DNA of 64,000 bases, taken from Hansschlegelia beijingensis. GTDB lineage: Bacteria; Pseudomonadota; Alphaproteobacteria; Rhizobiales; Methylopilaceae. Positions within the stretch are counted from its first letter, which is position 1; every line of letters begins with the position of its first letter. The stretch spans positions 620,001-684,000 of the forward strand of contig NZ_JACIDR010000002.1 of the NCBI RefSeq assembly GCF_014196425.1, written 5' to 3'. Made by a program: the position numbers and the translations under genes. Positions 12,920 through 50,054 of this stretch are shown in pieces. The notes under the pieces were generated by a model. That model did not search any database. It saw only the letters and a list, made by a program, of their open reading frames with translations, and was not told the DNA's origin.

Positions 12920-12924
12920 CGGCC

Positions 12925-13716
12925 TCAACCGTATTTGTCGGCCGCGATCGTGACCGGCACGCGACCCAGGATGTACCTCAGCAGCCTGCGCGGCAGCAGG
13001 CGGCCGACGCGGATCGCCGCCACCATCTGCCAGGGGAACGCGATCAGCTCATGTCCCCGGGCGAGCCGGCGGCGGATCAGCGCCGCCGCGTCATCCGCGG
13101 ACATCTCGAACGGCTTCGGCCCCAGATAGCGCGCGCTCATGTCGCTCGTGACGAAGCCGGGGCAGACCACGCTCACGCCGACGCCGTCGGCGGCCAGGAA
13201 GTCGGCCAGCGCCTCGCCCCAGACCAGGATGCCGGCCTTCGAGGCCGAATAGGCTGCGGTGTCGCCGATCGGCTGCAGCGCAGCGAGCGAGCTCATCAGA
13301 ACGATCTGGCCCCGCCGGCGCGCCCGCATCGGCTCGATCAGCGGCGTCGCGGTGGCGACCGCGCCCTCGAGATTCACCCTGATCTGGCGCTGAGCGCTCT
13401 GGAAGGTCTCCATGCGGCGGTCGTCCTGCAGGCCGCCCGAAACTCCCGCGTTGGCGATCAGCAGGTCGACCGGATGGGCGGCGTCGAACGCCAGCAGAAC
13501 CCTGGCGAGCCCTTCCGCGTCGATCACGTCGACCGCCGCGGTCTCGACCGCAGCGCCCTGGGCGCGGCATTCCGCGGCGGTTCCGGCGAGCCGTTCCGCA
13601 TCCCGCCCGATCAGCAGGAGGGCGACCCCCGGAGCGGCGTAGGCGCGCGCCAGCGCAGCGCCGATCCCGCGGCCCCCTCCGGTGACCACGACAGACTGCG
13701 GAGACGCCTGAATCAC
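12925..13716 (-). CDS. Short-chain dehydrogenase/reductase
   Basis: A 263-residue classical SDR. Cofactor motif TGGGRGIG (residues 12-19), NAG at 89-91, catalytic Ser142/143, Tyr156 and Lys160 (YSASK). A GTG start overlaps the stop of the KpsS-like gene (GTGA), giving translational coupling, and 5 bp separate it from the ThDP enzyme. A basic hydrophobic C-terminus with a run of Arg/Leu (about 235-255) may associate with the membrane, as in some lipid-modifying SDRs. The substrate is unknown; oxidoreduction of a sugar or acyl intermediate in the polysaccharide pathway is a guess from context. Confidence 0.82.
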   Translation of the reverse strand: MIQASPQSVVVTGGGRGIGAALARAYAAPGVALLLIGRDAERLAGTAAECRAQGAAVETAAVDVIDAEGLARVLLAFDAAHPVDLLIANAGVSGGLQDDRRMETFQSAQRQIRVNLEGAVATATPLIEPMRARRRGQIVLMSSLAALQPIGDTAAYSASKAGILVWGEALADFLAADGVGVSVVCPGFVTSDMSARYLGPKPFEMSADDAAALIRRRLARGHELIAFPWQMVAAIRVGRLLPRRLLRYILGRVPVTIAADKYG

Positions 13717-15017
13717 TCGCCAGGTACCGGAGCGCCAGCTTCGCGGAAGGCGTTCTCGCTCGTCCAGGCGAGCGACACGGCGGGCGCGGGCCCCACCAAC
13801 CGGGCCATGGCGTTGGCGACGGCGATCTCGATGGCTTCGCGCGAGTAGAAGCCGCCGTTGATCTGCGTCCGCGCGGCGACGACCTTGCGGAAGGCCGCCG
13901 CGAACTCGAGGTCCGGAGGGGTGGGGTCGCGCCAGAAGCTTTCGAGCGAGCCCTGATGGGTGAGCCCCGGGAGGTCGTAGATCGCCTGACCGAGCGCGAT
14001 GGTCGGCCGCCCGCGCTCGATCGCGAGCGTGCCCATCGTGCTGTTCACCACCACCACGCCGCTCGCGCCGTCGATCAGCCGCGGATTGTTGCCGCCGTCC
14101 ACGTAGACGAGGCGGTCGCCAAGACCCGTGCGCTGCGCCGTGATGTGCGTCGCGCGCCGCCGGTTGACGAGGCCGTTGTCGAGAGGGTGCAGCTTGACGA
14201 CCAGATGGGCGTCCGGGGCGGCGTGCGCGGCGAACGACCGGGCGACGAAGTCGACGACCTCGGTCATCGCGCTGAACGGCGAATGCAGGCGGATCTGGTA
14301 GTCGCTGTCGAGCTGCAGCGGCAGCATGAAATAGCGCTGGCCATTGGCCGTCAGCGCAGCTTGCGCGGCCGCCGCGCGGCGCGCTTCCGCCTTGCGGCGC
14401 ATCAGGCGCCCGATCCAGCCTGCATACTCCACCAGCGGGTGGTTCGGCCGATAGCGCCGATAGCCGGGATACAGGTACGGGAAGCCCATATTGGCGCTGT
14501 TGTAGACCACGTCCCACAGCGAGCGGGTCGGCATGCTTCCCTGGATAGGGCGCGGTCGAGGCGGATCGGGCAGTTCCGCGGCGAGGCGGCGGATGGTCTC
14601 CGGATCCCGCGGAAGGCTCGAGAAGCCGTTCACGCCTCCCGCCTCCATGGTGATCCAGTTCGGGCGGAAATAGCCTTCCTCGAAGACATGGACGTCGACG
14701 CCGCGCAGCTGCGCGGTGGCGATGGCGACGCGGTGATACGGCCGCCCGTCGCCGAACAGCACGAGATCGGTGACGCCGCGCGTGTCCATGAAGGCCGAAA
14801 GGAAGCCGCGCCAGCCCTCGAAGCGACCACGATAGTCGACCGAACCGGGCATGCCCCAGAACAGCCTGTCGCCGAGATTGAGATTGATGCGCTCGACGCC
14901 GTAGCCCTGCTGCTTCAGGGCCTTGCCGAGACGCTTGAAGAACGGCGACGCGAGTCCCTGCAGGAACAGGAACGTGCGCTGCGGCCGCCTCCGAACGTCG
15001 TTCCCGCCGTCGATCAT
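13713..15017 (-). CDS. KpsS-like capsular polysaccharide biosynthesis/export protein
   Basis: A 434-residue member of the KpsS/LipB (capsule polysaccharide synthesis) family, cytosolic face of the inner membrane. In group-2 capsule systems KpsS adds the first Kdo to lysophosphatidylglycerol. Family segments seen here are FLFLQGLASPFFKRLGKAL at the start, FGDGRPYH, the EEGYFRPNWITME loop, LVVKLHPLDNG, and VVVNSTMGTLAIE with the HxxPLD/STMG nucleotide-sugar residues. The start is uncertain: I use the ATG of MIDGGND, preceded by a GGGCAGG-type site; GTG and TTG codons further upstream (to 15101) would lengthen it by up to 28 residues. Divergent from the KpsC-like gene. Confidence 0.85.
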   Translation of the reverse strand: MIDGGNDVRRRPQRTFLFLQGLASPFFKRLGKALKQQGYGVERINLNLGDRLFWGMPGSVDYRGRFEGWRGFLSAFMDTRGVTDLVLFGDGRPYHRVAIATAQLRGVDVHVFEEGYFRPNWITMEAGGVNGFSSLPRDPETIRRLAAELPDPPRPRPIQGSMPTRSLWDVVYNSANMGFPYLYPGYRRYRPNHPLVEYAGWIGRLMRRKAEARRAAAAQAALTANGQRYFMLPLQLDSDYQIRLHSPFSAMTEVVDFVARSFAAHAAPDAHLVVKLHPLDNGLVNRRRATHITAQRTGLGDRLVYVDGGNNPRLIDGASGVVVVNSTMGTLAIERGRPTIALGQAIYDLPGLTHQGSLESFWRDPTPPDLEFAAAFRKVVAARTQINGGFYSREAIEIAVANAMARLVGPAPAVSLAWTSENAFREAGAPVPGE

Positions 15018-15223
15018 CGGTCGCCTGCCCGGAGCGTTCCGCAAAACGCGCGTCGCCCCGTCCTTATCGCTGCCCCACACCCGTCGTTTCTCTTTTCGCA
15101 AATGCGAAGGCGTCCCTTGTAGGTCGGCGCCGGGGAAACCTCAGATTGCCCGTTGCAACGCCACGGCCGGACCGGTAGCGCTGGAGCAACCATCAGAAGC
15201 TAGAGAGACGTCGGACTCGCCAT

Positions 15224-16797
<1,574 letters not shown>

Positions 16798-16801
<4 letters not shown>

Positions 16802-18267
16802 CCGGATTCCTGTTCGCTTTCGTCGCGTCCTTCCTGGCGTCGCTCGTCGTCGAGACGTGGCCGCCGAGCCTCGCCTCGTTCAGGGCGCCGGCGCGCGCCC
16901 TGGCGTTCCGCCTGGCGCTTCACGCCGTGCTGTTTCTTGCGGCGTTCTCGCTGTCCTGGCGGCCATGGCACGCGGCCTTCGTGACCGTCACCGTCTGCGG
17001 CCTGTTCGGGGCCGGCTCCGCGATCAAGCGGCGCATCCTGGGCGAGCCGCTGATCTTCTCCGACTTCGCGCTGGTGCGGAACGCGATCCGGCATCCGCGG
17101 CTCTACTACGCGGAGCGGCTCGCGGAGCCGCGCGCGCTCGCCGGCTTCGCGGCCCTGATCGCCGCGACGGCCGCCTGGTTTGCGGTCGAGCCCTCGATCC
17201 TGCCGAGCGGCGGAGCCATCCTGGCGCTCGGACCCGCCGTGCTGACCGCGCTGCTTCTTGTCGCGCTGTTGAGCGCCCCGGTCGCCCGCGCAGCGGAGCC
17301 GCTCGTGCCGGCCGCGCCCGACCCGGCCACCGAAGAAGCGCGCCTCGGGCTCGGGGCCAGCATGTTGGCGCATTGGCTCGTCTGGCGCCGGAAGCAGCGG
17401 CCGTCGCAGCAGGCCCGGGATGCGATCCTCTCTGCGCCCGCGGTCACGCCGGCCCGCGCCGGCCCGCCGCTGATCGTCGCGATCCAGTGTGAGAGCTTCG
17501 TCGACCTGGCGTCGCGCGGGCTGCCGGGACCGGCCCTGCCGGGCTACCGGCAGCTCACGGAGCGGAGCCTCGCCTGGGGCCGATGCGAGGTGCCGGCCGA
17601 GGGCGCCTATACGATGCGGAGCGAATTCGCGTTCCTCACCGGTCTGCCACGCCCGGCGCTCGGCCTCGACGCCTACGATCCCTACCTCACCGCGGAGGCT
17701 TACGCGGACGCCTCGCTCGCGCGCCGCTACGCGGCGGCCGGGCGGCGCACGGTGTTCATGCACCCTTACGACCGCCGCTTCTTCGACCGTGACAGGCTCA
17801 TGCCGGCGCTCGGCTTCGAGCGCTTCGTCGACCGCGAGGCCTTCGCGGGGGCGGCGCGATTCGGGCCCTATGTGGCGGACGCCGCGGTCGCGGAGGCTGT
17901 GGCGGCCGAGATCAAGGCCGCGCGCGCACCGACCTTCCTGTTCGTCGTCACGATGGAGAACCACGGGCCATGGGGGCCGGGGCGGCTCGCAGGGCTGCCC
18001 GACCCGGCGCAGCAATATGCGCGGCACCTGGAGAACGCCGACCGCATGATCGCCGACGTCGCCCGGGCGCTCTCGAATCGGCCCGGCGGAGGTCTGCTCT
18101 GCGTCTACGGAGACCATGCGCCGGCCCGGACGCTCCATCCCGAGATGCCGGACAGGCGCTGTTCGGATTATGTCCTCTGGGATTCCCGGGCCGCCTCCAT
18201 CGGAGGCGGCGAACGCCAAGATACGAGCATCGAGGCCCTGAGCCGGCTTCTTCTTGCTCAAAGTTGA
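16798..18267 (+). CDS. LTA-synthase-like sulfatase-fold phosphoglycerol transferase
   Basis: A 489-residue membrane protein with about four N-terminal TM helices (within 1-165) and a periplasmic alkaline-phosphatase/sulfatase-superfamily domain (about 222-489). Metal and catalytic residues of the LtaS/OpgB group are visible: Glu232 (QCESFVD), nucleophile Thr272 (EGAYTMRSEF), the MENHGPWGP His, and YGDHAP near the end. The family transfers phosphoglycerol or phosphoethanolamine to glycans. A GTG start overlaps the KpsC-like stop (GTGA), so it is translationally coupled to a capsule gene; decoration of the exported polysaccharide is the simplest reading, and osmoregulated glucan is the alternative. 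Confidence 0.85.
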
Positions 18268-18321: not shown

Positions 18322-18421
18322 CATCAATGTGGCGAAGGGCCAAGGCCGCTCCGCGTTAGTTGGCAGGCAACTTCTTCGATGCTAACCCGAGGCTCGGGGT
18401 TGCATCTAATTGCGAGGACTA

Positions 18422-19567
18422 ATGCGGTCCAGGCTCGTCTCCGGCTTGGCGGCCATCGCCTCCGCCGGCCTACTCGCGGGGTGCTCTACGCTGCCCGCCG
18501 CTGGACCGACGGCGCAGCAGATCGATCCGCCGAGCGTCAACAAGAACGCCATCAAGGATTACGTGCTGGTCGATTTGAACCAGCAGGTCGTGGACATCCT
18601 CTCGCAGTATCGCGTCGCGCCGTTCGCCAAGCGCTTCGCCGCGCCGCAGCCGGCGCCGGGGCAGATCGTCGGTCTGGGCGATCAGCTGTCGATCACGCTG
18701 TTCGAAGCCGGCCAGGGCGGCCTGTTCGCGAGCGACTACGGCGCCCGCGTGACTCTCAACCAGCGCGTCGACAGCGACGGCTCGATCACGGTGCCTTACG
18801 GCGGCAAGATCCAGGCGGCCGGCGTGTCCCCGCAGGTCGTCGAGAGGCGAATCGTGGCCGCGCTCGAAGGGCGTGCGATCCAGCCCCAGGCGATCGTTCA
18901 GGTGACCGAGACGGTCAGCCGCAGCTTCGTCGTCAACGGCGAGGTCGGAAGGTCCGGCCGGTATCCGATCACGGGCGCGGGGGACCGGGTGCTCGACGCG
19001 CTCGCGGTCGCGGGCGGTCCGCGCCAGGAGGCGTTCGAGACGCGCGTGACGCTGCAGCGCGGCTCCGCGCAGGGTTCGGCGATCATGAAGGACATGATCG
19101 AGAACCCGTCCGAGAACGTCTTCGTTCAGCCGAACGACCGGATCTACGTCACCAAGGATCCCGAGATCTTCCTGGCGTTCGGCGCGGTTCCCAATCCGGG
19201 CCCGATTCCGTTCGGTCTCGACAAGATCTCCCTGCTCGAGGCGGTCGGCAAAGCCGGCGGCCTGATCGACCAGCGGTCCGATCCGGGCGCGTTCTTCCTG
19301 TTCCGCTACGAGCCGGCGTCCGCGGTGCGGTCGATGCGGCCGGACTACAACGGACATCTCGGCGACAAGGTGCCGGTCGTGTACCGCGTCAACCTGCGCG
19401 ACCCGAGGGCCTACTTCTACGCCAAGTCCTTCGCGGTGCGTGATCGCGACGTGCTCTACGTGGCCAACGCCCAGCTCACGGAGCTCCAGAAGTTCCTGGA
19501 GATCCTGGCGACCGCCCGCAACGTGGCGTCGACCGCCCGCACCGTGCAGAAGATCGGCGGGTTCTGA
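18422..19567 (+). CDS. Polysaccharide export outer-membrane lipoprotein (Wza family)
   Basis: A 381-residue lipoprotein. The signal peptide ends in a lipobox LLAGC with lipidated Cys21. A Poly_export domain (about 80-170, containing GLGDQLSITLFEAG and GSITVPYGGKI) is followed by two SLBB-like repeats (about 172-250 and 255-345). Wza-type octamers form the outer-membrane channel for capsule or exopolysaccharide. The ATG at 18422 has a GAGG site about 8 nt upstream. Its place behind the KpsC-like gene and the transferase ties it to that pathway, although a Wza-type channel is more typical of group 1/4 systems; KpsD-like function is possible. No Wzc or KpsMT gene is in the window. Confidence 0.88.
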   Translation: MRSRLVSGLAAIASAGLLAGCSTLPAAGPTAQQIDPPSVNKNAIKDYVLVDLNQQVVDILSQYRVAPFAKRFAAPQPAPGQIVGLGDQLSITLFEAGQGGLFASDYGARVTLNQRVDSDGSITVPYGGKIQAAGVSPQVVERRIVAALEGRAIQPQAIVQVTETVSRSFVVNGEVGRSGRYPITGAGDRVLDALAVAGGPRQEAFETRVTLQRGSAQGSAIMKDMIENPSENVFVQPNDRIYVTKDPEIFLAFGAVPNPGPIPFGLDKISLLEAVGKAGGLIDQRSDPGAFFLFRYEPASAVRSMRPDYNGHLGDKVPVVYRVNLRDPRAYFYAKSFAVRDRDVLYVANAQLTELQKFLEILATARNVASTARTVQKIGGF

Positions 19568-39043: not shown

Positions 39044-40198
39044 TCAGATCTCCTTCTCGAAGATCCGCCATACCTTGGTCTTCTCGGCCGGCATGCTCCG
39101 GACGAGGTTGAGGATCGACCTGTTGTCCTCGAGCATCCAGCTCACCTCGAGGCGCCGGCAGCCAGCCTTCCTGGCCTTCTCGATCGCGTCCGCCAGCAGA
39201 ACGGCCGCCGCCATGGCCCCGACCCGGGTGCCGCGCCAGGCGCGGCGCACCCCGATGATCGGCACCCGCACGCGCGAAACGCCGGAGACCTTGAGCCGCC
39301 AGATCAGCTTCGCCCAGCCGAACGGCATGAGCTTGCCGCCGAGGTCATGGACCGCCTCGTTGAGGTCGGGCGCCATGCACAGGACGCCGATCGGCTCGCC
39401 GCGCCAGTCCGCCAGCGTCGTCCAGTCCGGCGGCACGATCTGCTGCGCGAGCTCGGCGAGGAACTTCGCCTCCTCGTACGACACCGGCGCCGAGCCCCAG
39501 TTCACAGACCAGGCGTCGTTGTAGACCTCGTTCAGCTCGCGGGCCGCGTTGGGTCCCTGCGCGCGCCGGAGCTTCAGGTCGTCGGACCCGGACCACCGGG
39601 CGCGCACGGCCGCGACGCGGCTCGGGAGCTGGCTCTCCGCGATCGACCCTTCGTAGCCGACGATGTCCTTGATAGGCCGGAAGCCGAGGCGCGCCAGCTG
39701 CCGCGCATAATAGGGCGGCGCGAAATTGGTATGGGTGGTCGAGGGCGTCTCATAGCCTTCGACCAGCAGCCCGCACTCATGGTTGACCGAGGCGCTGAAC
39801 GGCCCCGTCACCCGGCTCAGCCCGTGCGAGCGCAGGAAATCCGCCGCGACGGCGAACAGCGCGTCCCACACCGGGTCGTCGTCCACGGCCTCAAGGAAGC
39901 CGAAGTGCCCGGTGGCGTCGTGGTACTTGGCGAGGTGCGCGTTGTGCTTGACCGCGTAGATGCGGCCGACCGGCTCGCCGCCGCGGAAGGCCACCCAGGC
40001 CTGACCCTCGTTCTCGCGCGCGAACGGCGTCACGCGCGGGGTCAGGACGTCATAGGTCTCCTTGAGCAGCGGCGGCGCGTAGTTCGGCTCGTGGCCCTGC
40101 GCTTTCAGCGCGGCGCGCCAGAACGGCTTGACGTCAGCCCTGGTGGCGACAGGCCGGATCTCGACCGCGCCACCCGGGACCCTGGTCGCCGACGCCAA
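39044..40198 (-). CDS. GNAT-fold acyltransferase in the PKS-oxoamine synthase operon (ceramide-synthase-like role suspected)
   Basis: A 384-residue protein. The C-terminal part (about 240-380) shows GNAT-like features, VPIIGVRRAWRGTRVGAM followed by EVSWMLEDNRSILN, matching acyl-CoA-binding motif A and motif B. The N-terminal 200 residues form a second domain (IRPVATRADVKPFW, RIYAVKHNAHLAKY, GPFSASVNHECGLLVEG). No ATG is available; a TTG 5 bp after the oxoamine synthase stop is the likely start, and a CTG overlapping that stop is the alternative. Bacterial ceramide synthases of the Caulobacter type are GNAT-fold enzymes; together with the upstream PLP enzyme this suggests N-acylation of an amino-lipid. 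The family is recognised, the role is inferred. Confidence 0.7.
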   Translation of the reverse strand: MASATRVPGGAVEIRPVATRADVKPFWRAALKAQGHEPNYAPPLLKETYDVLTPRVTPFARENEGQAWVAFRGGEPVGRIYAVKHNAHLAKYHDATGHFGFLEAVDDDPVWDALFAVAADFLRSHGLSRVTGPFSASVNHECGLLVEGYETPSTTHTNFAPPYYARQLARLGFRPIKDIVGYEGSIAESQLPSRVAAVRARWSGSDDLKLRRAQGPNAARELNEVYNDAWSVNWGSAPVSYEEAKFLAELAQQIVPPDWTTLADWRGEPIGVLCMAPDLNEAVHDLGGKLMPFGWAKLIWRLKVSGVSRVRVPIIGVRRAWRGTRVGAMAAAVLLADAIEKARKAGCRRLEVSWMLEDNRSILNLVRSMPAEKTKVWRIFEKEI

Positions 40199-40203
40199 GC
40201 GGG

Positions 40204-41592
40204 TCAGCTCGGCCGGGTCGCTTTGGCCAGGGCTGCGGCCATCTTGATGCCGAACCCCGCCTTCGCCAGCTTCGCGTGCTCGTCGGCGGTGATCGCGACC
40301 GCCTCGTCTATCTGCTCCGGCGTGTGCTCGCTGGTGATGAAGAAGCGCAGCCGAGCCGAGCGCTCCGGCACCGCCGGATGGATGATCGGAAGCGCGTTCA
40401 CGCCGCGCTCCAGCAGCCTGTTGGACAGGTGGACGGCCCGCAGCGAGTCGCCGACCATCACGGGCACGATGGCGAGCCCGGTGCTGGAGCCGACGTCGAG
40501 ACCCGCCTCCTTGGCCTTCTCGACGAAGCGCACGCCGTTGGCGCGCAGCTGCGTCACCCGCTCCGGCTCCCGCTCCAGCAGGTCGAAGCAGGCGATCGCG
40601 GCGGCCGCGACCGCGGGCGGCATGCCGACCGAATAGACGAAGCCGGGGGCGGTGAACTTGAGGTATTCGACGAGCGCCGCCGAGCCGGCGATGAAGCCGC
40701 CGCAACCCGACAGCGTCTTGGACAGCGTGCCCATCCAGATGTCGACGTCGCGCGGGTCGACGCCGCATTCCTCGGCGACGCCGTGGCCGGTCTTGCCCAG
40801 AACGCCGAGCGAATGGGCCTCGTCGACCATCAGCCAGAAGCCGTAGCGGTCGCGCAGCGAGACCAGGCGCGCGAGATCCGGGAAGTCGCCGTCCATGCTG
40901 TAGAGGCCTTCCACGGCGACCAGCACGCGCTCATGCGAATGGGCCTGCTGGGCGAGGATCTCCTCCAGCGCGTCGAGGTCGTTGTGCGGAAACAGCCTGC
41001 GGGTGGCGCCCGACAGCGTCGCGCCGACCACGATCGAGTTGTGGGCGAGCGAGTCGTAGACGATGAGGTCCTTCGGACGCATCAGGTGGCCGATCGCGGC
41101 CACGTTGGTGGCGTGGCCGCTGACGAAGGCGATCGCGGCCTCGACGCCGTAGAAGTCCGCGATGCGGCGCTCGAGCTCCCGATGGATCGGGCGCTCGCCG
41201 GCGACGAGGCGGCTCGCCGAGACCGAGACGCCGTAGTGGTCGATCGCGGCCTTGGCCGCTGCGGCGACCTCCGGATGACCGTTCAGGCCGAGATAGTTGT
41301 AGGAGGCGAAGTTGATGTCGGTGCGGCCGTCGATATGCGTGGTCGCTCCCGCGACTCCGTCGTGGAGGCGGAAGAACGGGTTCGTCACCCCGAGCAGGTC
41401 GGTGACCGCCTGCTGGGTCTTGATGTCCTTCAGCTCCTGAAGGTCGGCGAAGCGGTCGTTGCGCTTGCGCGCCGGCCGCGCGGCGGCGGCCGTCTCGCCG
41501 CGCGCCTCCGGCTTCGGGGTCGCGCGCAGCGCGCCCAGGATGCCGTCCTTGGCCGAACGGGAGAGTGCGCCGATTCCGCGCCGGCCGCTCAT
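40204..41592 (-). CDS. Alpha-oxoamine synthase (serine palmitoyltransferase/FUM8-like PLP enzyme)
   Basis: A 462-residue fold-type-I PLP enzyme. Core motifs: NFASYNYLGLNGHP, SGHATNVAAI, VEGLYSMDGD, VDEAHSLG (Asp257, His260) and the Schiff-base Lys292 in GTLSKTLSGCGG. An N-terminal extension of about 50 residues, basic and Ala/Arg-rich, is absent from BioF of this genome. The superfamily joins an acyl thioester with an amino acid with loss of CO2. The ATG overlaps the PKS stop (ATGA), so the enzyme is translationally coupled to the PKS and is the obvious off-loading enzyme for its ACP-bound chain. The amino acid used (Ser, Ala or Gly) cannot be read. Confidence 0.85.
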   Translation of the reverse strand: MSGRRGIGALSRSAKDGILGALRATPKPEARGETAAAARPARKRNDRFADLQELKDIKTQQAVTDLLGVTNPFFRLHDGVAGATTHIDGRTDINFASYNYLGLNGHPEVAAAAKAAIDHYGVSVSASRLVAGERPIHRELERRIADFYGVEAAIAFVSGHATNVAAIGHLMRPKDLIVYDSLAHNSIVVGATLSGATRRLFPHNDLDALEEILAQQAHSHERVLVAVEGLYSMDGDFPDLARLVSLRDRYGFWLMVDEAHSLGVLGKTGHGVAEECGVDPRDVDIWMGTLSKTLSGCGGFIAGSAALVEYLKFTAPGFVYSVGMPPAVAAAAIACFDLLEREPERVTQLRANGVRFVEKAKEAGLDVGSSTGLAIVPVMVGDSLRAVHLSNRLLERGVNALPIIHPAVPERSARLRFFITSEHTPEQIDEAVAITADEHAKLAKAGFGIKMAAALAKATRPS

Positions 41593-44500
41593 CCGGTGAC
41601 GTGCCCGAGCGTCGCGCGGCGCGCTTCGACGGCTTCGCTGAACTCGGCGAGTTCCGCGTGAGCGACGTCGTCGCCGATGTGACGGTTGACGAGGTCGGCG
41701 TTGACCGAGCCCGCCTCGGCGCCCGCGTCCGGCTCATGGATGCGGCTGACGATCGACTGCGCGATCGTGGTCAGCGTCGTCGAGTCGCCGATCGCCACGA
41801 GCGGCAGCTCGATGTCGAAGCGACGTTCGACGCTCATCCGCAGCTCGAGGCCCATCAGCGAGTCCATCCCAAGTTCTGCGAGCGGCCGCTGCGGAGAAAT
41901 CTCCTTGGCCGGCAGCTTGAGGATGCGCCCGACCTCGCCGGCGAGGATCTCCGCCACGATGTCGCGCGCCTCGCGGGCGTCCTTGCCGCGGACGAGCGCG
42001 GCGAGGTCGATCGTCTCGACGGAGTCCTGCGGCCCCATCTCGGCGCCAGCCACCACCTGGGCGAACATCGGCGACGCCAGGAAGGCGAGATCGCGCCGCG
42101 CCGCGCCCCAGTCGAGCGGGGCGATCGTGATCACCGCGGTCTCGAGGCGGAGGTCGTCATGTGCGAGCACGCGGCCCAGTCCCTCCAGCGCCTCGGCGCC
42201 CGAGAGGGTCTGATAGCCGAGACGCTTCTGGATCTTCTCCTTCACCTCGCCGGTGCGGGCCAGGTAGCCCACGTCGCCGAGCGCGCCCCAGGCGATCGCG
42301 AGGCCCGGAAGCCCCTCGCGCCGACGCACGCGAACCAGCGACTCGAGCCACATGTTGGCCGCGACATAGTTCGACTGGCCCGGATTGCCGATCACCGTCG
42401 TGGCCGAGGAATAGACCACGAACTGCTTTACCGGGTCCTGGCGCGTCAGCTTGTCGAGCGCATGCGCGCCGTCGATCTTCGGCCGCAGCACGGCCTCGAA
42501 CCGCGCCTCGTCGAGATTGGCGAGCAGCGCGTCGTCGAGCACCATGGCCACGTGCCAGACCCCGCCGATCGGACCGAGGTCGCGGCGGGTCTCGTCGAGC
42601 GCCTTCTCCAGAGCGGCGGCGTCCGCGGCGTCGCAGGCGAACACCTTGACCTTGGCGCCGGCCGCCTCGACGCGGGCGACGCCGTCTCGGGCCGCCTGGG
42701 TGGAGGCGCCGGAGCGGCCGATCAGGGCGATCCTGTCGGCTCCGTTGGCGACCAGCCATTCGGCGGTCGCGAGCCCGAACCCGCCGAGGCCGCCGACCAG
42801 CACATGCGCGCCCTCGGCCGCGCGGAACGCGGGCGGCGTGGTCTCGCCGAGCTGGGCCGGGTCGAGCGGCCGCACCACGATCTTGCCGACATGGCCGGAC
42901 TGCTGCATCAGCCGGAAGGCGTCGCCGATGTCGTTCGCCTCATAGGCCCGGTAGGGCAGCGGCGCGAACACGCCCTTGTCGAACAGCTTCATGCACTCGC
43001 CGAACAGGCGCTGGCCGAGATCCCCGCGGTGGATCAGCAGCTGATCGGCGTCGATGCCGAAATAGCTGATGTTGCGGCGGAACGGACGGAGCCCGAGACG
43101 GCTGTTGGCGTAGTAGTCGCGCTTGCCGAGCTCGAGGAAGCGGCCGAACGGGCGCAGCACGCTCAGGGAGCGCTCCATCGCCTCGCCGAACAGCGAATTC
43201 AGCACCACGTCGACGCCTTCGCCGCCGGTGAGCTTCTTCACCTCGTCGACGAACTCGAGGCTGCGGCTCGACAGAACGTGCGTCGCGCCGAGCGCGCGCA
43301 GCAGGTCCCGCTTCTCGTCGGAGCCGGCCGTCGCGATGACCTTGGCGCCCTTCCAGAGCGCGATCTGCAGCGCCGCAAGTCCGACGCCTCCGGCGCCGCC
43401 ATGGATCAGCACCCACTCGCCGCGCCGAAGCTGGGCGAGATGCTGGAGCGCATAATAGGCGGTGAGGAAGCACACCGGGATCGTCGCGCCTTCCTCGAAA
43501 TTGATCGAGTCCGGCAGCGGGGCCACGGCGGTTTCAGACGTCACGACGCGCGACGCGAAGGCCCCGGAGGCGAACGCCACGACGCGGTCGCCGACCCGGT
43601 AGCGCTTCACGCCCGGCCCGACGGCGGTCACGACGCCGGCGCATTCGATGCCAAGCCCGGGACCGGCGAAGCCGTCCTCGAGCGCTTCTTCGGGCAGAAG
43701 GCCGAGAGCCCACATCACGTCGCGGAAGTTCAGGCCGACGGCGGAGACATCGATCGCGACCTCGCCCTCGGCAGGGTCGAGGGCCGGCGCGGCGACCCAG
43801 GACAGGTCGTCGAGGCCGCCGTCGCGGCCGGATTCGAGCGCCGCGACGCGAGCGCCCTCGGCGTCGGAGGCGGCGACCGGGAATTCCGGCAGGCCGGGCC
43901 GGAGCCGCGGGGCCAGAACGCCCTCGGAGGTGATCGCGAGTTCGACGTCATCCTTGGGCGCGGCGAGTTCGGCCGCCACGGCGCGAGCCGCATCGTCCAG
44001 GCTGAGCTGCGAGGACACGTCCAGCAGACGGATGTCCACGCCGCGCAGCTCGTTGCGCACGACGCGAAGGAAACCGGTCAGCGCGGCCTGTTCCGGACGA
44101 TCCTCTCCCGCGCCAAGGCCGCCCGCGAGCGCGCCGGGCGCGACCACCCAGAGGCGCGCCGACACGTCATGCACCGCGCGGGCGAGCGACAGCAGCCGTC
44201 CCGCCCGGTCCGCGGTCGCGGCCGACAGCGCGCCTTCGGCCGCGTCGAACACAGCGATCACGTCGGCCGAGGCCCCGGTCGCTCCCTTGGCGGGGGCCCG
44301 CAGCCCGAGCTCGGCCGCCGGGGCCCAGCCCTGCTCGGCATGGGCATGGCCATTGGTCTTGCCGTTCGAGCGCCCAGCGCCGGCGGGCGCCTGATGCACA
44401 GTGACCGGTCGGCCGAGACCTTCGATCGCACGCGCGATCGCGAGCGAAAGCCCTTCGGCCGCGCCGGGGGTCTCGGCCACGAGCACGAGCGGCGCGACAT

Positions 44501-47500
44501 GCGCGGCCGCTTCGACGGCCGCGGTCGCGCGCCGCCGCTTGGCGGCGAGCACGAGCGAGATCGGCGAGCGCGCGCCCGCGACAGGGGCGATCGCCTGATC
44601 GGGAAGCCGGGCGTCGCCGAGGTCGGCCGTCCAGTCCGCCGAGGACCTCGCGCCGCCGACCGGGAATTCCGGCGAGGCGGAGCGCTCGAACCAGCCGGCC
44701 TGCACGCCGAACACGACGTCCAGGAACGGGGTGGGCTCCAGAGCCGCCAGCACGAGCCGTCCGCCGTCCGCGATCCGGGCGCCGAGACGGCGCATGGCGT
44801 CGGACGCAGCGACCGTGGCGCCCCAGCCGAGCGAGCCGACCACGAGGTCGAACCTGCCGACATCCGCGCCGTCGGCGGCGAGGTCGAACTGCTCGACCGT
44901 GACGTTTGGCTCGCCCGCGAAGGCGAAGCGCAGCCGCTCCGCCGCGGTCGCGTCCGGATCCGTCACCACCAGGGTGACGCGTGGATCGCGCGCGAGCGGG
45001 GCGAGCCGGCGGGTCAGCGCGCCGGAGCCGGCGCCGATCTCGAGGATGCGGATAGGCTGGCCGGCGGGGCTCTGCGCGACCAGGTCGGCGGCCGTCTCGG
45101 CCACGGCCGTGACGCCGGCGGAGACCAGCGGCGCCGCGCTGCCGGCGTGGGCCAGCGTGGAGGCGCCATAGGGCGACGCGAGCGGGCCGTCCCTGAGGGC
45201 CTTCGGCAGCAGGACCGCGGCGCGCGTCGCGAACACGCATTCGGCGCCGCGATCGGGGAAGTCGGCGATGATCGTGCGGATGATCTCGGCCGACGGCGGC
45301 AGGCCGGTCTTGGCCACGAGCGTCCAGACGTCGCCCTGGGCCGTCGCGTGACCCTGATGCTCCAGCAGCCCGAGCAGGCTGTAGGCGAGCGGCGCAGAGG
45401 CGGCGGCCAGCCGGCCTCGCTTGATGAGGTCCGCGATCGCGCCCTGGCGCTTTCGGCCAAAGATCGCCGACAGGCTTTCATGCGCGGCCGCGACCGCGAA
45501 GGCTTCCAGAAGAAGGTCGTCTTCCGGCCGCTCGACGTCGCCCGTCGCGGTCAGGCCGAGAGCCGCCGCCCTTGCGGCGAGCTCCTCGCCGGTCGGGGCC
45601 GGGGCCGAGGCCCCCTCGGAGGCCCCCACAAGCGCCGGAGCGTAATGGTAGGACAGCCGCCCGAGCGGCGTACGCCGGGACAGCGTGACCGCGCGGAAGC
45701 GCGCGTCCGCCAGCACCGCGACGATCTCGCCGTCGGCGCCCAGGATCGTGAAGGTCGCGTCGATCGAGCGCGGGCTGAGGCGGCGCACCACGATTTCCGC
45801 GCCCGCGATGGCCGCGCCCGGCTTGAGCAGCCGCAGCGAGCCGAAACGCATCGGCAGGTACGTCACGTCCGGCCGGTCGCCATGAACGCCGAACAGCGTC
45901 AGCAGGGCGTGGAAGCAGGAGTCGAAATCGGCCGGGTGCAGGCCGTAGCGCGCGTCGCGCTCGCCCTTGCGGTCGCCCTCCGGACGGAGGCGGACGGACA
46001 GGCGGTCGGGCCCATAGCGAACCACGTGATCGACGACCTGGAACGCCGGGCCGAAGTCGAGGCCGTGGGCCTCGGCGCGGGCGTAGAGGTCCGCGGCGCG
46101 GAAGATCTCGCCGTCATGCGCAGGGGTCGACGGCGTCTGCGCGGCGACGGTCGGCGGGGCGGAGACCCGGCCGGTGGCATGCAGCACCCAGCCGTCGTCT
46201 CGCAGGCGCGGACGGCTAAGGATCTCGACGGTCCGGCTCTCGGGAGACACGCGGGTGCGGATTTCCGACATGGAGTCGGGTTCAAGCGTCAGCGCGTGCG
46301 GGATTTCGAAGTCCGCAAGCTCCACCACGTCGGCCTTGAGCCAGCCGCGGCCTGCCGCGAGCGCCATCTCGGCAAGCGCCGCGCCGGGCACGATCACGCG
46401 GCCCGAGACCTTGTGGTCCCCGAGAAGCGGGACGACGGCGGCGTCGAGATGAGCAGTCCACTCGTCCGAATCCGCGCGCAGTCGCGAGCCGATCAGCGGA
46501 TGCGGGTCGAAGCCCCGGTAGAAGGACTGCGCCTCCGCGGTCGCGCCGACCGCGAAACGGGTGTTCTGCCACGGGTAAGTGGGCAGGCGGACCGCCGAGC
46601 CGTCGAGCTTCCCGAAGGCCAGCTCGCGGTCGACCCGGCCGCCCTTGGCGATGACGCGGGCCACCGCGCGGCGGAGCGGATCATGCTCGCCGGCGCCGTG
46701 GTCGTCGCAGGACAGCACGCCGCCGGTCACTTCCGCGGCCGCGAGGCAGTCGCTCAGATAGGTCTGAAGCACCGGCCGCGGACCGATCTCCACGAACACC
46801 CGCGCGCCTTCTTCGACCGCGGCCGCGACCGCATCGGCGAAGCGCACAGGCCGGCGAACGTTCTCCCACCAGTAGTCGGCGCCGAGCTCGGCTCCGTCGA
46901 TCACCGCGCCCGTGACGCTCGACACGAAGGTGCGCTGGGTGGCGCCCGGCTGCAGGCCGGCGAGATCGGCCAGCAGCGGCTCCTTCACGGCGTCGATCAG
47001 GCCGGTGTGGAACGGATAGTCGATGTCGAGCACGCGCACCGGCACGCGCCGGGTGCGGGCGAAGCGGCTGAGCTCCTTGATCTCGGACTCCGGCCCCGAG
47101 ATCGTGATCGAGCGCTCGCTGTTGATCGCCGCGATCTCGACATTGGCGAAACCGCCGTCGCGCAGCAGCGCGCTGACTTCCTGCGCCGGCAGCAGAACGG
47201 CGGCCATCGTGCCGTTCTTCCAGGCGATCTCCTGGTGAACGCTGCGCGAATGAACGACCGCCACAGCCTGGTCGAGCGTCAAGGCGCCGGAGGCGGCGGC
47301 GGCCGCGACCTCGCCCACCGAATGGCCGAGCACGATATCCGGCGTCAGCCCCTCGGCGGCGAGCGCCGCGGTGGTCGCCACCTGCACAGCGAACATCAGC
47401 GGCTGCGCGGTCTCGGCGCGGCGCAGACGGTCGGGAAGGTCGTCGGCGAACAGCGCGTCCGCGATCGACCATTTGGCGAGCGCGGCGAAGCGCGCGTCGA

Positions 47501-49199
47501 TCTCGGAGATCTTCTGCCGGAAGGTCGCGTTGTGGGCGTGAAGCCTGCGGCCCATGCCGGCCCATTGCGAGCCGTTGCCCGAGAACGCGAAAGCGACCGG
47601 CGCGTCGCGGCCGACCGCGCCGTCGATCGCGACGTCCTTGGCCTCGCCGCCTTCGGCGACCGCGGCGAGCGTCGCCGCCCAGGTCGAGGGATCGTCGCTC
47701 TCCAGCACCAGCCTGCGGGGCAGCAGGTCGCGGGTCGCGGCCACGCTCTTCGCGATGTGGCGGGCGGCCGCGGGGTCGCGGCCCTCGAGCAGCTTGGCGT
47801 AGCTCCCGGCCACCGCCGAGAGCGCCTCCCGGGTGCGGGCCGAGAGCGCGAGGACCGGAGTGCGGCCTTCCGCCTCGACGACCCGCGGCGCGGAGCGGCC
47901 GGACCGGTCCTCGGGCGTCGGATCGCAGACGATGACGTGGGCGTTGGTGCCGCCGAAGCCGAAGGAGTTCACTCCGGCGTAGCGCGGCGCGGAGCCGCGC
48001 GGCAGCGGAACCGCGCTCGTGGCGACGTGCAGCTTCAGCGCGTCGAACGGAATGTCCGGGTTGAGCTCGGTGACGTGCAGGCTCGCGGGCAGCAGATCGT
48101 GCTCGAGAGCGAGGTCCGTCTTGAGCAGGCCCACCAGGCCGGAGGCCGGCTCGAGGTGGCCGACATTGGTCTTCACCGAGCCGATCGGGAGCGGCCCGAC
48201 CGTGCGGCGCTTCACGGCCGCGCCGATCGCGTTGGCCTCCGCCGGGTCGCCGACCCGCGTGCCGGTGCCGTGCGCCTCGATGAAGGCGATGCTGTCGGGA
48301 TCGACGCCGGCCTCTTCGTAGACGCGCTCCAGCAGGCTGAGCTGGGCCTCGGAGGAGGGCAGCGACATGCCGACCGTGCGGCCGTCCGAGTTGACCGCCG
48401 AGGCGGCGATCATCAGGCGCATGGGGCGCTTGGCGGCGCGCGCGACATCGGCGCGCTCCAGCACGATCGCGACGCCGCCCTCGGAGCGGACATAGCCGTC
48501 GCCGCTGGCGTCGAACGCATGGCAGCGGCCGCGCGGCGAGAGCATCGTCGCCTGCGCGAAGGTGATGAACGGGAAGGGGCTCGCCAGGATCGAGACGCCG
48601 ACCACGATGGCGCGCTCGATGCGTCCGGCCCGAAGCGCCGCGACAGCCTCGTTCAGCGCGACGAGCGAGGACGAGCAGGCGGTGTCGACCGTGAAGCTCG
48701 GCCCATGCAGATCGTAAATGTACGAAATACGATTTGATACGATCGATAGCGTATTGCCGGTCGCGAAATAGGCGTCCGCGGACGCCGGATCGAAAATGAT
48801 GCGGTTGCCGTAGTCGAGCGAGGACGTGCCGACATAGACGCCGGTCTCGGATCCGGCCACCGAGGAGGGCGGAATGCCTGCGTCCTCGAGCGCCTCCCAG
48901 ACCAGCTGCAGCGACAGGCGCTGCTGCGGGTCCATCTGTTCCGCTTCACGCGGCGAGATGCCGAAGGCCGCAGGGTCGAAGCCCCAGATGTCGTCCAGCA
49001 CGCCGGCCGCGAACGTGTAGGTCTTGCCTGGCTCGCCCTTGCGCGGGTGCAGGTAGCGCGCGTGATTCCAGCGGTCTTCGCCGACGGTCGTGACGGAGCA
49101 CCGGCCTTCGGCCAGCAGCGACCAGAAGGCGTCGACGTCGTTTGCGCCGGGCAGCCGGCAGGAGCGGCCGACGATCGCGAGGGAAGGCGTCTTCCTCAT
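41589..49199 (-). CDS. Type I polyketide synthase, single highly reducing module (KS-AT-DH-MT-ER-KR-ACP)
   Basis: A 2536-residue multifunctional enzyme. KS about 5-430 (Cys175 in DTACSSSL, His310 in EAHGTGT, His348 in GHLEPASG). AT 535-830 (Ser627 in GHSVGE, specificity loop YPFH 728-731). DH 895-1175 (HKVSGRVIVP with His929; Asp1093 in FDSCFHA). C-methyltransferase-like 1230-1500 (LEIGAGSG 1386-1393). ER 1795-2110 (GGAGGVGLAA). KR 2130-2330 (GGLGGFG, LDD 2221-2223 suggesting B-type, Tyr2278, Asn2282). ACP 2410-2480 (Ser2447 in LGMDSLMG). There is no thioesterase or docking domain; about 55 residues follow the ACP. The domain order is that of fungal highly reducing iterative PKSs. The stop overlaps the oxoamine synthase start. 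Confidence 0.93.
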   Translation of the reverse strand: MRKTPSLAIVGRSCRLPGANDVDAFWSLLAEGRCSVTTVGEDRWNHARYLHPRKGEPGKTYTFAAGVLDDIWGFDPAAFGISPREAEQMDPQQRLSLQLVWEALEDAGIPPSSVAGSETGVYVGTSSLDYGNRIIFDPASADAYFATGNTLSIVSNRISYIYDLHGPSFTVDTACSSSLVALNEAVAALRAGRIERAIVVGVSILASPFPFITFAQATMLSPRGRCHAFDASGDGYVRSEGGVAIVLERADVARAAKRPMRLMIAASAVNSDGRTVGMSLPSSEAQLSLLERVYEEAGVDPDSIAFIEAHGTGTRVGDPAEANAIGAAVKRRTVGPLPIGSVKTNVGHLEPASGLVGLLKTDLALEHDLLPASLHVTELNPDIPFDALKLHVATSAVPLPRGSAPRYAGVNSFGFGGTNAHVIVCDPTPEDRSGRSAPRVVEAEGRTPVLALSARTREALSAVAGSYAKLLEGRDPAAARHIAKSVAATRDLLPRRLVLESDDPSTWAATLAAVAEGGEAKDVAIDGAVGRDAPVAFAFSGNGSQWAGMGRRLHAHNATFRQKISEIDARFAALAKWSIADALFADDLPDRLRRAETAQPLMFAVQVATTAALAAEGLTPDIVLGHSVGEVAAAAASGALTLDQAVAVVHSRSVHQEIAWKNGTMAAVLLPAQEVSALLRDGGFANVEIAAINSERSITISGPESEIKELSRFARTRRVPVRVLDIDYPFHTGLIDAVKEPLLADLAGLQPGATQRTFVSSVTGAVIDGAELGADYWWENVRRPVRFADAVAAAVEEGARVFVEIGPRPVLQTYLSDCLAAAEVTGGVLSCDDHGAGEHDPLRRAVARVIAKGGRVDRELAFGKLDGSAVRLPTYPWQNTRFAVGATAEAQSFYRGFDPHPLIGSRLRADSDEWTAHLDAAVVPLLGDHKVSGRVIVPGAALAEMALAAGRGWLKADVVELADFEIPHALTLEPDSMSEIRTRVSPESRTVEILSRPRLRDDGWVLHATGRVSAPPTVAAQTPSTPAHDGEIFRAADLYARAEAHGLDFGPAFQVVDHVVRYGPDRLSVRLRPEGDRKGERDARYGLHPADFDSCFHALLTLFGVHGDRPDVTYLPMRFGSLRLLKPGAAIAGAEIVVRRLSPRSIDATFTILGADGEIVAVLADARFRAVTLSRRTPLGRLSYHYAPALVGASEGASAPAPTGEELAARAAALGLTATGDVERPEDDLLLEAFAVAAAHESLSAIFGRKRQGAIADLIKRGRLAAASAPLAYSLLGLLEHQGHATAQGDVWTLVAKTGLPPSAEIIRTIIADFPDRGAECVFATRAAVLLPKALRDGPLASPYGASTLAHAGSAAPLVSAGVTAVAETAADLVAQSPAGQPIRILEIGAGSGALTRRLAPLARDPRVTLVVTDPDATAAERLRFAFAGEPNVTVEQFDLAADGADVGRFDLVVGSLGWGATVAASDAMRRLGARIADGGRLVLAALEPTPFLDVVFGVQAGWFERSASPEFPVGGARSSADWTADLGDARLPDQAIAPVAGARSPISLVLAAKRRRATAAVEAAAHVAPLVLVAETPGAAEGLSLAIARAIEGLGRPVTVHQAPAGAGRSNGKTNGHAHAEQGWAPAAELGLRAPAKGATGASADVIAVFDAAEGALSAATADRAGRLLSLARAVHDVSARLWVVAPGALAGGLGAGEDRPEQAALTGFLRVVRNELRGVDIRLLDVSSQLSLDDAARAVAAELAAPKDDVELAITSEGVLAPRLRPGLPEFPVAASDAEGARVAALESGRDGGLDDLSWVAAPALDPAEGEVAIDVSAVGLNFRDVMWALGLLPEEALEDGFAGPGLGIECAGVVTAVGPGVKRYRVGDRVVAFASGAFASRVVTSETAVAPLPDSINFEEGATIPVCFLTAYYALQHLAQLRRGEWVLIHGGAGGVGLAALQIALWKGAKVIATAGSDEKRDLLRALGATHVLSSRSLEFVDEVKKLTGGEGVDVVLNSLFGEAMERSLSVLRPFGRFLELGKRDYYANSRLGLRPFRRNISYFGIDADQLLIHRGDLGQRLFGECMKLFDKGVFAPLPYRAYEANDIGDAFRLMQQSGHVGKIVVRPLDPAQLGETTPPAFRAAEGAHVLVGGLGGFGLATAEWLVANGADRIALIGRSGASTQAARDGVARVEAAGAKVKVFACDAADAAALEKALDETRRDLGPIGGVWHVAMVLDDALLANLDEARFEAVLRPKIDGAHALDKLTRQDPVKQFVVYSSATTVIGNPGQSNYVAANMWLESLVRVRRREGLPGLAIAWGALGDVGYLARTGEVKEKIQKRLGYQTLSGAEALEGLGRVLAHDDLRLETAVITIAPLDWGAARRDLAFLASPMFAQVVAGAEMGPQDSVETIDLAALVRGKDAREARDIVAEILAGEVGRILKLPAKEISPQRPLAELGMDSLMGLELRMSVERRFDIELPLVAIGDSTTLTTIAQSIVSRIHEPDAGAEAGSVNADLVNRHIGDDVAHAELAEFSEAVEARRATLGHVTG

Positions 49200-49524
49200 G
49201 AGCTGCGACGCAGCCCCGCGACGCGCGACGCGCGCGGCAAATCAATGGGACGACTATCGGCCGGCGCGAAAACAGACATGAACCCGGGCTCCGGGGCAGC
49301 CCGGCTCGCCGGGCAGGACGACGTTCGTTTGGGGGCTTCGGCCGTCTATCGAGGCTTTACGAAAAGGTGTCAAGCGCGCCCCCTGCGCCGAACCGCGGCC
49401 GTCTGGGGCGTCTATCGGGGGCCGTTCAGGGGTGTCGGAATACCCGCATCAGTCGCGAAAGGCCGCCAGCCCGCGCCCTCGGTTGATGAGCCGCGCCCTG
49501 CAAGTCGAATCGGCCAGGCCGGCC
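49200..49524. other. Region upstream of the PKS gene
   Basis: No gene seen. It contains the candidate promoter, its imperfect upstream copy (49409-49436), and a leader hairpin GCCCGG/CCGGGC with loop CTCG (about 49299-49314). No divergent gene or regulator gene is present. Confidence 0.5.
49345..49373 (-). promoter_or_regulatory. Candidate sigma-70 promoter of the PKS operon
   Basis: Reading on the minus strand: TTGACA (49373-49368), a 17-bp spacer, and GATAGA (49350-49345). The predicted start would give a leader of about 140 nt before the PKS ATG. The same arrangement recurs 65 bp upstream in weaker form. Confidence 0.5.
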
Positions 49525-49878
49525 TCAACGGCGTTTCGCCAGGCGGCGCGCGTTCGCGCGCACGGCGCGGTTGACCGGCGCCAGCGCCGCCTCGCCGGCG
49601 GCGACCATCAGGCCGGCGGCCGCGACCGGGCCCGCAGCCGTCGCGAGGCCTCCGAGGACCTGGCCTGCCGCGAAGGTCGCTTCGACGCTCGCCGTAAGCT
49701 TCTCCGTGATCATGCGGTAGTTCTCCTGCGCGCCGCGCGCCGTCGGGCTCCCGGCCTCGGCCACCATGCTGCCCAGCCGGTTGGCGACGACAAAGCCGGC
49801 GAACGGCGCCATGGCCGCATAGCCGGTGGCGAGGGCGGCCTGCCGGCGCCACAAATCGAGAAGCTCGAACGGGTCCAT
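49525..49878 (-). CDS. Hypothetical small alpha-helical protein (phasin-like pattern)
   Basis: A 117-residue protein with a predicted helical, amphipathic sequence: MDPFELLDLWRRQAALATGYAAM at the start, a central NYRMITEKLTASVEATFAAGQV helix, an Ala/Gly/Val-rich hydrophobic segment (about 75-97) and a basic tail. Length and helical pattern recall small phasin-like proteins, but the resemblance is weak and I do not assign a function. It ends 325 bp upstream of the PKS on the same strand; co-transcription is possible but a PKS promoter lies between. Confidence 0.55.
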   Translation of the reverse strand: MDPFELLDLWRRQAALATGYAAMAPFAGFVVANRLGSMVAEAGSPTARGAQENYRMITEKLTASVEATFAAGQVLGGLATAAGPVAAAGLMVAAGEAALAPVNRAVRANARRLAKRR

Positions 49879-50054
49879 ACTCGGTCCTGCCTGCGCTGGC
49901 GCCTGAGCGATCATCGCTGCGCTGCAGCAACCTAACACTCGGAGCCCGGCGAACGTTCATGCGTGGGGGGAAGGTCGGCGTTGCGCGCCCGCGCGTTGAC
50001 CGGTTTCGGCCGAAGCTGCCATAGCGCACGCTCCCCCAGGGCCGGCAGAGCTCC

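Follow-up and report, generated by a model that had tools for sequence, protein, structure and literature searches.

A polyketide synthase, an alpha-oxoamine synthase and a ceramide-synthase-family acyltransferase in one candidate operon of Hansschlegelia beijingensis: a possible source of lipid for an rkp-1-like capsule

Organization of the locus

The window analyzed here, a 64,000-nucleotide stretch of the Hansschlegelia beijingensis genome (contig NZ_JACIDR010000002.1, positions 620,001 to 684,000), carries three closely packed genes encoding a polyketide synthase (PKS), an alpha-oxoamine synthase (AOS), and an N-acyltransferase of the GNAT fold (hereafter, the trio; Table 1). The start of the AOS gene overlaps the stop of the PKS gene (ATGA), and the GNAT gene begins with a TTG codon 5 bp past the AOS stop; most simply, the operon consists of these three genes. 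Downstream of the trio, rimM and ffh lie on the opposite strand. Upstream of the PKS gene there is a short reverse-strand frame (49525-49938) without an assigned family, a longer frame that overlaps it giving zero Pfam matches, and farther upstream are found an EamA transporter gene on the forward strand and then a formate-tetrahydrofolate ligase gene. At approximately position 49373, 5' of the PKS start, TTGACA and GATAGA elements with a 17-base spacing were spotted by eye, and represent a candidate, unscored promoter.

Table 1. Genes of the trio and of the capsule block in the window, and the canonical serine palmitoyltransferase (SPT) cluster located elsewhere in the genome
Feature	Position	Strand	Size and basis
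PKS, RkpA/SgaA-like, iterative-type, single-module	41589..49199	(-)	2536 aa; KS-AT-DH-MT-ER-KR-ACP; Pfam and motifs
AOS, RkpG-like	40204..41592	(-)	462 aa; PKS-linked AOS group in tree
GNAT-fold N-acyltransferase, bacterial ceramide synthase family	39044..40198	(-)	384 aa; tree and invariant columns
SDR reductase, RkpH-like; candidate 3-ketosphinganine reductase	12925..13716	(-)	35% identity to RkpH
KpsS-like capsule protein, RkpJ-like; putative Kdo transferase	13713..15101	(-)	Pfam Capsule_synth, 290.7 bits; 45% identity to RkpJ
KpsC-like Kdo transferase	15224..16801	(+)	Match to solved KpsC 6mgd_A, E 1.7e-63
Membrane protein with sulfatase-fold domain, RkpI-like; candidate phosphoglycerol transferase	16798..18267	(+)	Pfam Sulfatase; 33% identity to RkpI
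Polysaccharide export protein, RkpU-like	18410..19567	(+)	Pfam Poly_export/SLBB; 33% identity to RkpU
Canonical SPT cluster	contig C7, L041:5061-15861		AMP-binding enzyme, ACP, SPT, CDP-alcohol phosphatidyltransferase-like, LptF/G-like, ceramide-synthase-family GNAT

The polyketide synthase and the alpha-oxoamine synthase

Pfam matches to the PKS at E<=0.001 cover KS, AT, DH, methyltransferase, ER, KR, and ACP domains and include no thioesterase, and all of the active-site motifs that were looked for, as consensus patterns, are present. A preliminary description of this DNA had reported a single-module PKS that lacks a thioesterase, an AOS whose start overlaps the PKS stop, and a GNAT following a 5 bp gap, and this picture holds. 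The protein is 41% identical to RkpA of Sinorhizobium meliloti over nearly the full length of the latter. Its methyltransferase motif I looks intact (EIGAGSG; region 44754-45044), but the GxGxG pattern, kept in the same-genus PKSs of loci L045 and L046, is lost in those of L043, L044, and L085 (3 of 5) and is gone from 12 of the 13 wider relatives aligned; the domain is thus possibly a remnant, and the idea that it signals a branched chain was dropped, since the motif decays in relatives. Across RkpA-type PKSs, motif I ranges from intact to lost, resembling a domain that is decaying into a structural remnant.

The AOS displays 60% identity to S. meliloti RkpG. It matches BioF, KBL, and SPT models while remaining below the cut-off for all 17 families listed, and it fails all three NCBIfam SPT cut-offs (307.4 bits against 640 for the best SPT model), which places it outside the canonical bacterial serine palmitoyltransferases as defined by the curated model. 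Identification as BioF was rejected, the window having its own BioF-like gene within a biotin cluster at 21.7-25.8 kb, as was identification as the canonical SPT, which in this genome sits on contig C7. In a tree of 56 AOS rows, from which duplicate or overlapping loci were dropped and among which SgaB does not figure, 45 rows of the PKS-linked type, including S. meliloti RkpG and an AOS from a Pseudomonas plasmid, fall together on the same side of a branch (support 95/98), and nine canonical SPT rows form a separate branch (100/100). An RkpA-type PKS adjoins most of these 45 enzymes; in one of their loci (L058) a PKS match was looked for and none was found. The PKS-linked group is characterized by motifs such as NFASYNYLGL, HNSI, WMGTLSKT, and PAVPE.ARLRFF, with variants, whose counterparts in canonical SPTs are GTNNYLGL, HASIYD, GTFSKS, and PPATP. 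The window thus holds a pair of the RkpA/RkpG (SgaA/SgaB) kind: a single-module reducing PKS without thioesterase, adjoining an AOS that groups with PKS-linked enzymes and apart from canonical SPTs.

The GNAT and a canonical SPT cluster elsewhere in the genome

The GNAT fold of the third protein is recognized through weak Pfam matches (Acetyltransf_1 scores 26.8 bits, its cut-off being 20.7), and a search of the PDB for sequence relatives yielded none at E<=10. By homology, its family is clearly that of the bacterial ceramide synthases (CerS/bCerS): it aligns over its full length with GNATs from SPT clusters, through which the placement was made, the CerS sequence of Caulobacter crescentus lying outside the comparison, and 24 columns are invariant among 55 aligned GNATs that span the trio and SPT-cluster groups. 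A tree of 68 sequences was built without duplicate loci and without the trio copy of genome G142; the GNATs of the named Hansschlegelia, Methylopila, and Chelatococcus records, identical to those of genomes G157, G161, and G160, were entered once. The trio GNATs form a clade of 14 rows (100/100) that comprises 12 same-genus trio copies, the Aquibaculum protein, and the GNAT of L089, where the operon is truncated. This clade sits beside GNATs from SPT clusters on a long branch, with 29-38% identity to the other aligned family members over nearly the full length.

The trio GNAT is not the sole protein of the ceramide synthase family in the genome, a possibility ruled out by a second copy on contig C7 that is 31% identical to it. 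The 13 second copies found in the genus constitute another clade (100/100), close to GNATs of Caulobacteraceae SPT loci. Since the two sets of copies occupy separate, fully supported clades (100/100 each) and share the 24 invariant columns, the trio GNAT is, on sequence grounds, a paralogue within the family rather than a recent duplicate of the C7 gene. The second copy belongs to a canonical SPT cluster (Table 1) whose AOS passes the curated SPT model with 676.1 bits (cut-off, 500); no CerR was identified in the C7 stretch. The cluster resembles SPT clusters described in the accessible text of PMC9386255 and PMC11324152 (CerS = CC_1154). Because this cluster is present in addition to the trio, the organism seems to possess two separate sphingolipid pathways.

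Distribution of the trio

The order PKS-AOS-GNAT is found in all 13 same-genus genomes searched, that of the window included, with the PKS match being split into five pieces in one of them (G156). Within the family of the window (18 genomes), both the trio GNAT and the second copy occur in 13/13 genomes of the genus and neither occurs in the five genomes of two other genera (0/5). Among named genomes, Hansschlegelia plantiphila (L085; Methylopilaceae, Hyphomicrobiales) gives the closest match, with identities of 83% for the GNAT, 89% for the AOS, and 84% for the PKS. A pattern-based search of a named genome collection returned 18 GNAT loci, of which four hold a full trio, one is cut at a contig end, eight have a canonical-type SPT near the GNAT, and five show neither arrangement. 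The full trios are those of H. plantiphila, a Methylopila metagenome bin, a strain filed as Chelatococcus sambhunathii, and Aquibaculum arenosum, which belongs to another order, Rhodospirillales, and keeps the trio order. As the first three correspond, by identical GNATs, to genomes G157, G161, and G160 of the genus, Aquibaculum is the only independent complete trio outside the genus among the loci searched. Among 385 genomes of the class, 50 encode a member of the GNAT family at E<=1e-20, while a close one (at least 49% identity) is present only in the genome of the window and in G320, whose copy is the Aquibaculum gene. The conservation of the gene order in 13/13 same-genus genomes and in A. 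arenosum is more than would be expected by chance.

The trees are divided over a single origin of the trio: the GNATs form one clade, yet monophyly of the 14 trio AOSs is disfavored in a constrained tree (p-AU 0.016). The operon may have arisen by two separate assemblies, or its GNAT gene may have been passed on by transfer. In a Lysobacterales metagenome bin (L093, 3289-11119), a ceramide-synthase-family GNAT directly follows sequences resembling a ketosynthase and an enoyl reductase, and no AOS match was obtained in this stretch; this is perhaps another arrangement that combines fatty acid or polyketide synthesis with such a GNAT.

A putative rkp-1-like capsule block in the window

A search of the window with six rkp-1 proteins of S. 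meliloti gave a match for each of them (6/6), RkpA and RkpG at the trio and RkpH, RkpJ, RkpI, and RkpU at 13.1-19.5 kb; the queries came from a plasmid record (L132) that carries product names only, so that Rkp names were assigned from the published gene order, and the RkpI query is an unannotated frame chosen in that record. Homologues of RkpH, RkpI, RkpJ, and RkpU, together with a KpsC, form an rkp-1-like capsule gene set in the window (12.9-19.6 kb). Compared to rkp-1 of Sinorhizobium (rkpU-rkpA-rkpG-rkpH-rkpI-rkpJ), to which the synthesis or modification of a capsule lipid carrier is ascribed (PMC3557214, PMC4881576), the PKS-AOS pair is shared and the other four proteins have homologues, but in the window the genes are separated into two blocks approximately 20 kb apart, and a ceramide-synthase-family GNAT after the AOS and a KpsC are added, neither of which is present in the 21 kb S. 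meliloti stretch.

The SDR is 43% identical to an SDR near the Pseudomonas PKS-AOS pair and 54% identical to the one beside the Aquibaculum trio. The KpsS-like protein scores 236.5 bits with the NCBIfam KpsS model, under its cut-off of 600. The RkpI-like protein has four hydrophobic segments within residues 1-158, and its best solved relatives are the phosphoglycerol transferase GacH (E 7.6e-6) and an LTA primase (E 1.8e-3), enzymes that are matched better by its relatives from S. meliloti (GacH-type, E 4.1e-9) and from the Pseudomonas plasmid (LTA primase, E 8.9e-14). As for a capsule transporter, the genome offers only distant KpsM-like matches (26-28%). A TPP enzyme at 11249-12928 was rejected as a pathway member, being matchless in the other PKS-AOS loci searched.

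Capsule genes and PKS-AOS pairs in other genomes

In Methylobacterium bullatum (L134, and also the near-identical locus L052 of genome G117) the two blocks occur together, the AOS-PKS pair adjoining a capsule set whose order (export protein, phosphoglycerol-transferase-like protein, KpsC, KpsS, SDR) is that of the second block of the window, and in Aquibaculum an SDR and a KpsS directly adjoin the trio. Among 14 AOS loci (20 kb each) taken from the other families in the order, ten carry at least one of KpsS, KpsC, and the export protein, and four carry none (L047, L054, L058, L060); the corresponding figure for four canonical SPT loci is 0. A search of a plasmid collection (704 records, 30 of them listed) provided six hand-picked loci (H1, H2, H6, H9, H10, H14), five of which, including the source of the rkp-1 queries, contain capsule genes, the exception being that of Planktothrix. 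Within the stretches examined, no trio-like GNAT was present in the 14 AOS loci or in the six plasmid loci.

The association extends to whole genomes. With PKS-type AOSs defined at E<=1e-120, a threshold set after viewing the list, and KpsS homologues at E<=1e-40, 28 of the 33 genomes of the order with a PKS-type AOS have a KpsS homologue, against 13/117 of those without, 150 genomes being compared (Fisher 1.3e-15, kinship ignored); a looser AOS set of 37 gives 29/37 against 12/113, kinship again being ignored, and counting by families gives 11/14 against 8/38 (p 2.5e-4, with kinship equally left aside). In the family of the window, KpsS occurs in the same 13/13 genomes of the genus as the trio GNAT, and either of them in 0/5 of the others, a pattern that may reflect one event.

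These observations bear on a capsule-independent alternative, the one proposed in the preliminary description, in which the trio makes a free N-acylated sphingolipid that serves as a membrane lipid or a secreted metabolite. The products of the Pseudomonas pair SgaAB were found as free sphinganines, and the main text of that report contains no words starting with "capsul" (PMC12134224). Linkage in the genus is also loose, the trio and KpsS lying on the same contig in 5/13 genomes (approximately 24, 36, 594, 622, and 945 kb apart) and on different contigs in 8/13, such that in 11/13 they are on different contigs or more than 590 kb apart. The co-occurrence of KpsS (13/13 against 0/5; 28/33 against 13/117) nevertheless speaks against a free product, as does the proximity of capsule genes to PKS-AOS genes in records of Aquibaculum, Methylobacterium, Sinorhizobium, Shinella, Pseudomonas, and Caballeronia, and we consider this alternative unlikely.

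A candidate pathway to a capsule lipid

On balance, we lean slightly towards a model in which the trio supplies the lipid moiety of an rkp-1-like capsule, an N-acylated polyketide sphingoid that would act as the acceptor of a Kdo-linked capsule. The chemical steps, their order, the specificity for serine, and the use of the product in capsule export would be as follows. The PKS would work iteratively, with the long chain held on its own ACP, and the AOS would release this chain by decarboxylative condensation, most likely with serine by analogy with SgaB (PMC12134224), generating 3-ketosphinganine. The SDR at 12925-13716 would then reduce the ketone, and the GNAT would N-acylate the amine, before or after this reduction, leading to a dihydroceramide-type lipid; the order of N-acylation and reduction is itself debated in Caulobacter, according to the accessible text of PMC11087976 and PMC11324152. 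The RkpI-like phosphoglycerol-transferase homologue is a candidate for the formation of a phosphoglycerol or other lipid derivative, on which the KpsS/KpsC-like enzymes would place a Kdo linker, the glycan being eventually exported on the lipid. The known acceptor for this type of capsule export is phosphatidylglycerol, to which the Kdo linker is added by KpsS and KpsC (PMC11041684, in the text available); a phosphoglycerol sphingoid would mimic lyso-phosphatidylglycerol, and its N-acylated form, phosphatidylglycerol.

The model is favored by the kinship of the AOS and PKS with RkpG and RkpA (60% and 41%) together with the presence of all six rkp-1 matches in the window, by the adjoining blocks of Methylobacterium and the SDR and KpsS beside the Aquibaculum trio, by the co-occurrence of KpsS, and by the position of the trio GNATs beside those of SPT clusters. 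It is favored also by the match of RkpI-type proteins to phosphoglycerol transferases and LTA primase, and by the reported yield of sphinganines and probable phosphoglycerol-sphinganines from SgaAB, SgaB preferring serine. Against it stand the five of 33 PKS-AOS genomes without KpsS and the 13/117 genomes that have KpsS and no PKS-type AOS; the AOS scores below SPT cut-offs, the mostly unlinked trio and KpsS in the genus, and the distant relationship of the KpsM-like transporters found; and the lack of capsule genes at 4/14 AOS loci and at the Planktothrix plasmid locus, along with the disfavored monophyly of the trio AOSs. Kdo is transferred in the cytoplasm, and the site of action of LTA-synthase-type enzymes is outside the inner membrane. 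A phosphoglycerol-lipid acceptor would therefore have to flip back, which is a weak point of the model.

Since the genome contains a canonical SPT cluster with its own GNAT, N-acylation need not be the role of the trio GNAT, which could instead acylate another acceptor, such as a capsule amino sugar or a hydroxyl, or have drifted in role. The long branch of its clade, with 29-38% identity to other aligned members, is consistent with this, as are the un-acylated sphinganines described in the available text of the SgaAB report; the tight coupling of the GNAT to the AOS in two orders and the 24 columns shared with SPT-cluster GNATs argue against it, and we regard it as quite improbable. It is very doubtful that alanine or glycine is the amino acid that the AOS joins to the chain, with a 1-deoxysphingoid or aminoketone as the product capped by the GNAT: although the AOS lacks canonical SPT signatures, falls under every SPT equivalog cut-off, and FUM8 uses alanine according to the preliminary description, SgaB, a PKS-paired AOS whose activity has been tested, takes serine almost exclusively in the text available, and the AOS motif set is common, with some variation, to the PKS-linked group that includes the Pseudomonas plasmid enzyme.

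Relation to known systems

The capsule-lipid model connects two sets of observations. In the available text of PMC3557214 and PMC4881576, the product of the rkp-1 PKS genes goes no further than the name of lipid carrier or anchor, the latter paper also citing a study which, by its title, reports a phospholipidic anchor on S. meliloti poly-Kdo; this neither proves nor excludes a phosphosphingolipid. In Pseudomonas fluorescens MYb115, the PKS SgaA and the AOS SgaB make C24-C28 sphinganines, accompanied by products that are heavier by 154 Da and most likely represent phosphoglycerol sphingolipids, and the presumed ketoreductase is an SDR (Peters et al. 2025, PMC12134224, in its accessible text). 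The window shares with this system a single PKS, an AOS, and such an SDR, the sphinganine product having been shown there, whereas in that text neither an N-acyltransferase step is reported nor a link to capsules drawn. Joining the rkp-1 lipid to SgaAB chemistry suggests a concrete structure for the acceptor of the capsule, namely a sphingoid that is made by a PKS and, in some lineages, N-acylated. More tentatively, and with chances somewhat short of even, rkp-1-type capsules may be built on polyketide-derived sphingolipids, the added ceramide synthase paralogue here yielding a phosphoglycerol-ceramide anchor that mimics phosphatidylglycerol, in place of a glycerophospholipid. If so, bacterial sphingolipids, treated apart in the accessible literature, would be connected with capsule export, the Pseudomonas SgaAB sphingolipids would be capsule-anchor lipids or precursors thereof, and sphingolipids would be worth seeking wherever a PKS-AOS pair adjoins capsule genes.

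The Caulobacter-type SPT/CerS pathway employs a GNAT of the same family, and this genome has such a cluster on contig C7; however, canonical SPT makes use of a stand-alone ACP and an acyl-ACP synthetase, and no PKS (PMC9386255, in the text available), and both the AOS and the GNAT of the trio fall outside the Caulobacter-type clades. The likeness to fungal FUM1/FUM8, whose product is a mycotoxin, concerns domain order and AOS release and is an analogy, drawn in the preliminary description. Membership in the swf family of sponges was rejected, the swf PKS being accompanied by reductase/sulfotransferase and radical SAM genes in the accessible text of PMC3908369.

The core proposal of the preliminary description, a PKS chain released by the AOS as a sphingoid and then N-acylated, fits both SgaAB and the family of the GNAT, although the capsule genes of the window had been overlooked; a free sphingoid or ceramide as the end product, by contrast, is judged less likely than a capsule lipid. 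The genome search that it called for located the trio in 13/13 same-genus genomes and in Aquibaculum, and the phylogenies that it suggested place the AOS apart from canonical SPTs and the GNAT inside the ceramide synthase family. It had left open whether the combination was described in alphaproteobacteria: the PKS-AOS pair is already known (rkpA-rkpG; SgaAB), and the GNAT within such an operon may be new. The literature searched, which was sparse in subscription journals, yielded neither a PKS-AOS operon with a GNAT of the ceramide synthase family nor an identification of the rkp-1 lipid with a sphingolipid.

Two plasmid loci present further features. In the cyanobacterial Planktothrix plasmid (L137:3518-11137), capsule queries are matchless nearby, and the annotated PKS gene spans most of the AOS match, so the PKS and AOS may be fused. 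In the Pseudomonas plasmid (L133), the AOS is followed by a dioxygenase, a KpsC-like protein, a small GNAT, an LTA-synthase-like protein, and an SDR; the locus tags given in the accessible text of PMC12134224 (SgaA RS19805, SgaB RS19800, SgaC RS19775) allow for four genes in the interval from SgaB to the SDR, the arrangement of this plasmid, which is only suggestive. The dioxygenase (a phytanoyl-CoA dioxygenase family protein, L133:11183-12226) and the small GNAT (14342-14944), located amid the capsule genes, could point to lipid tailoring.
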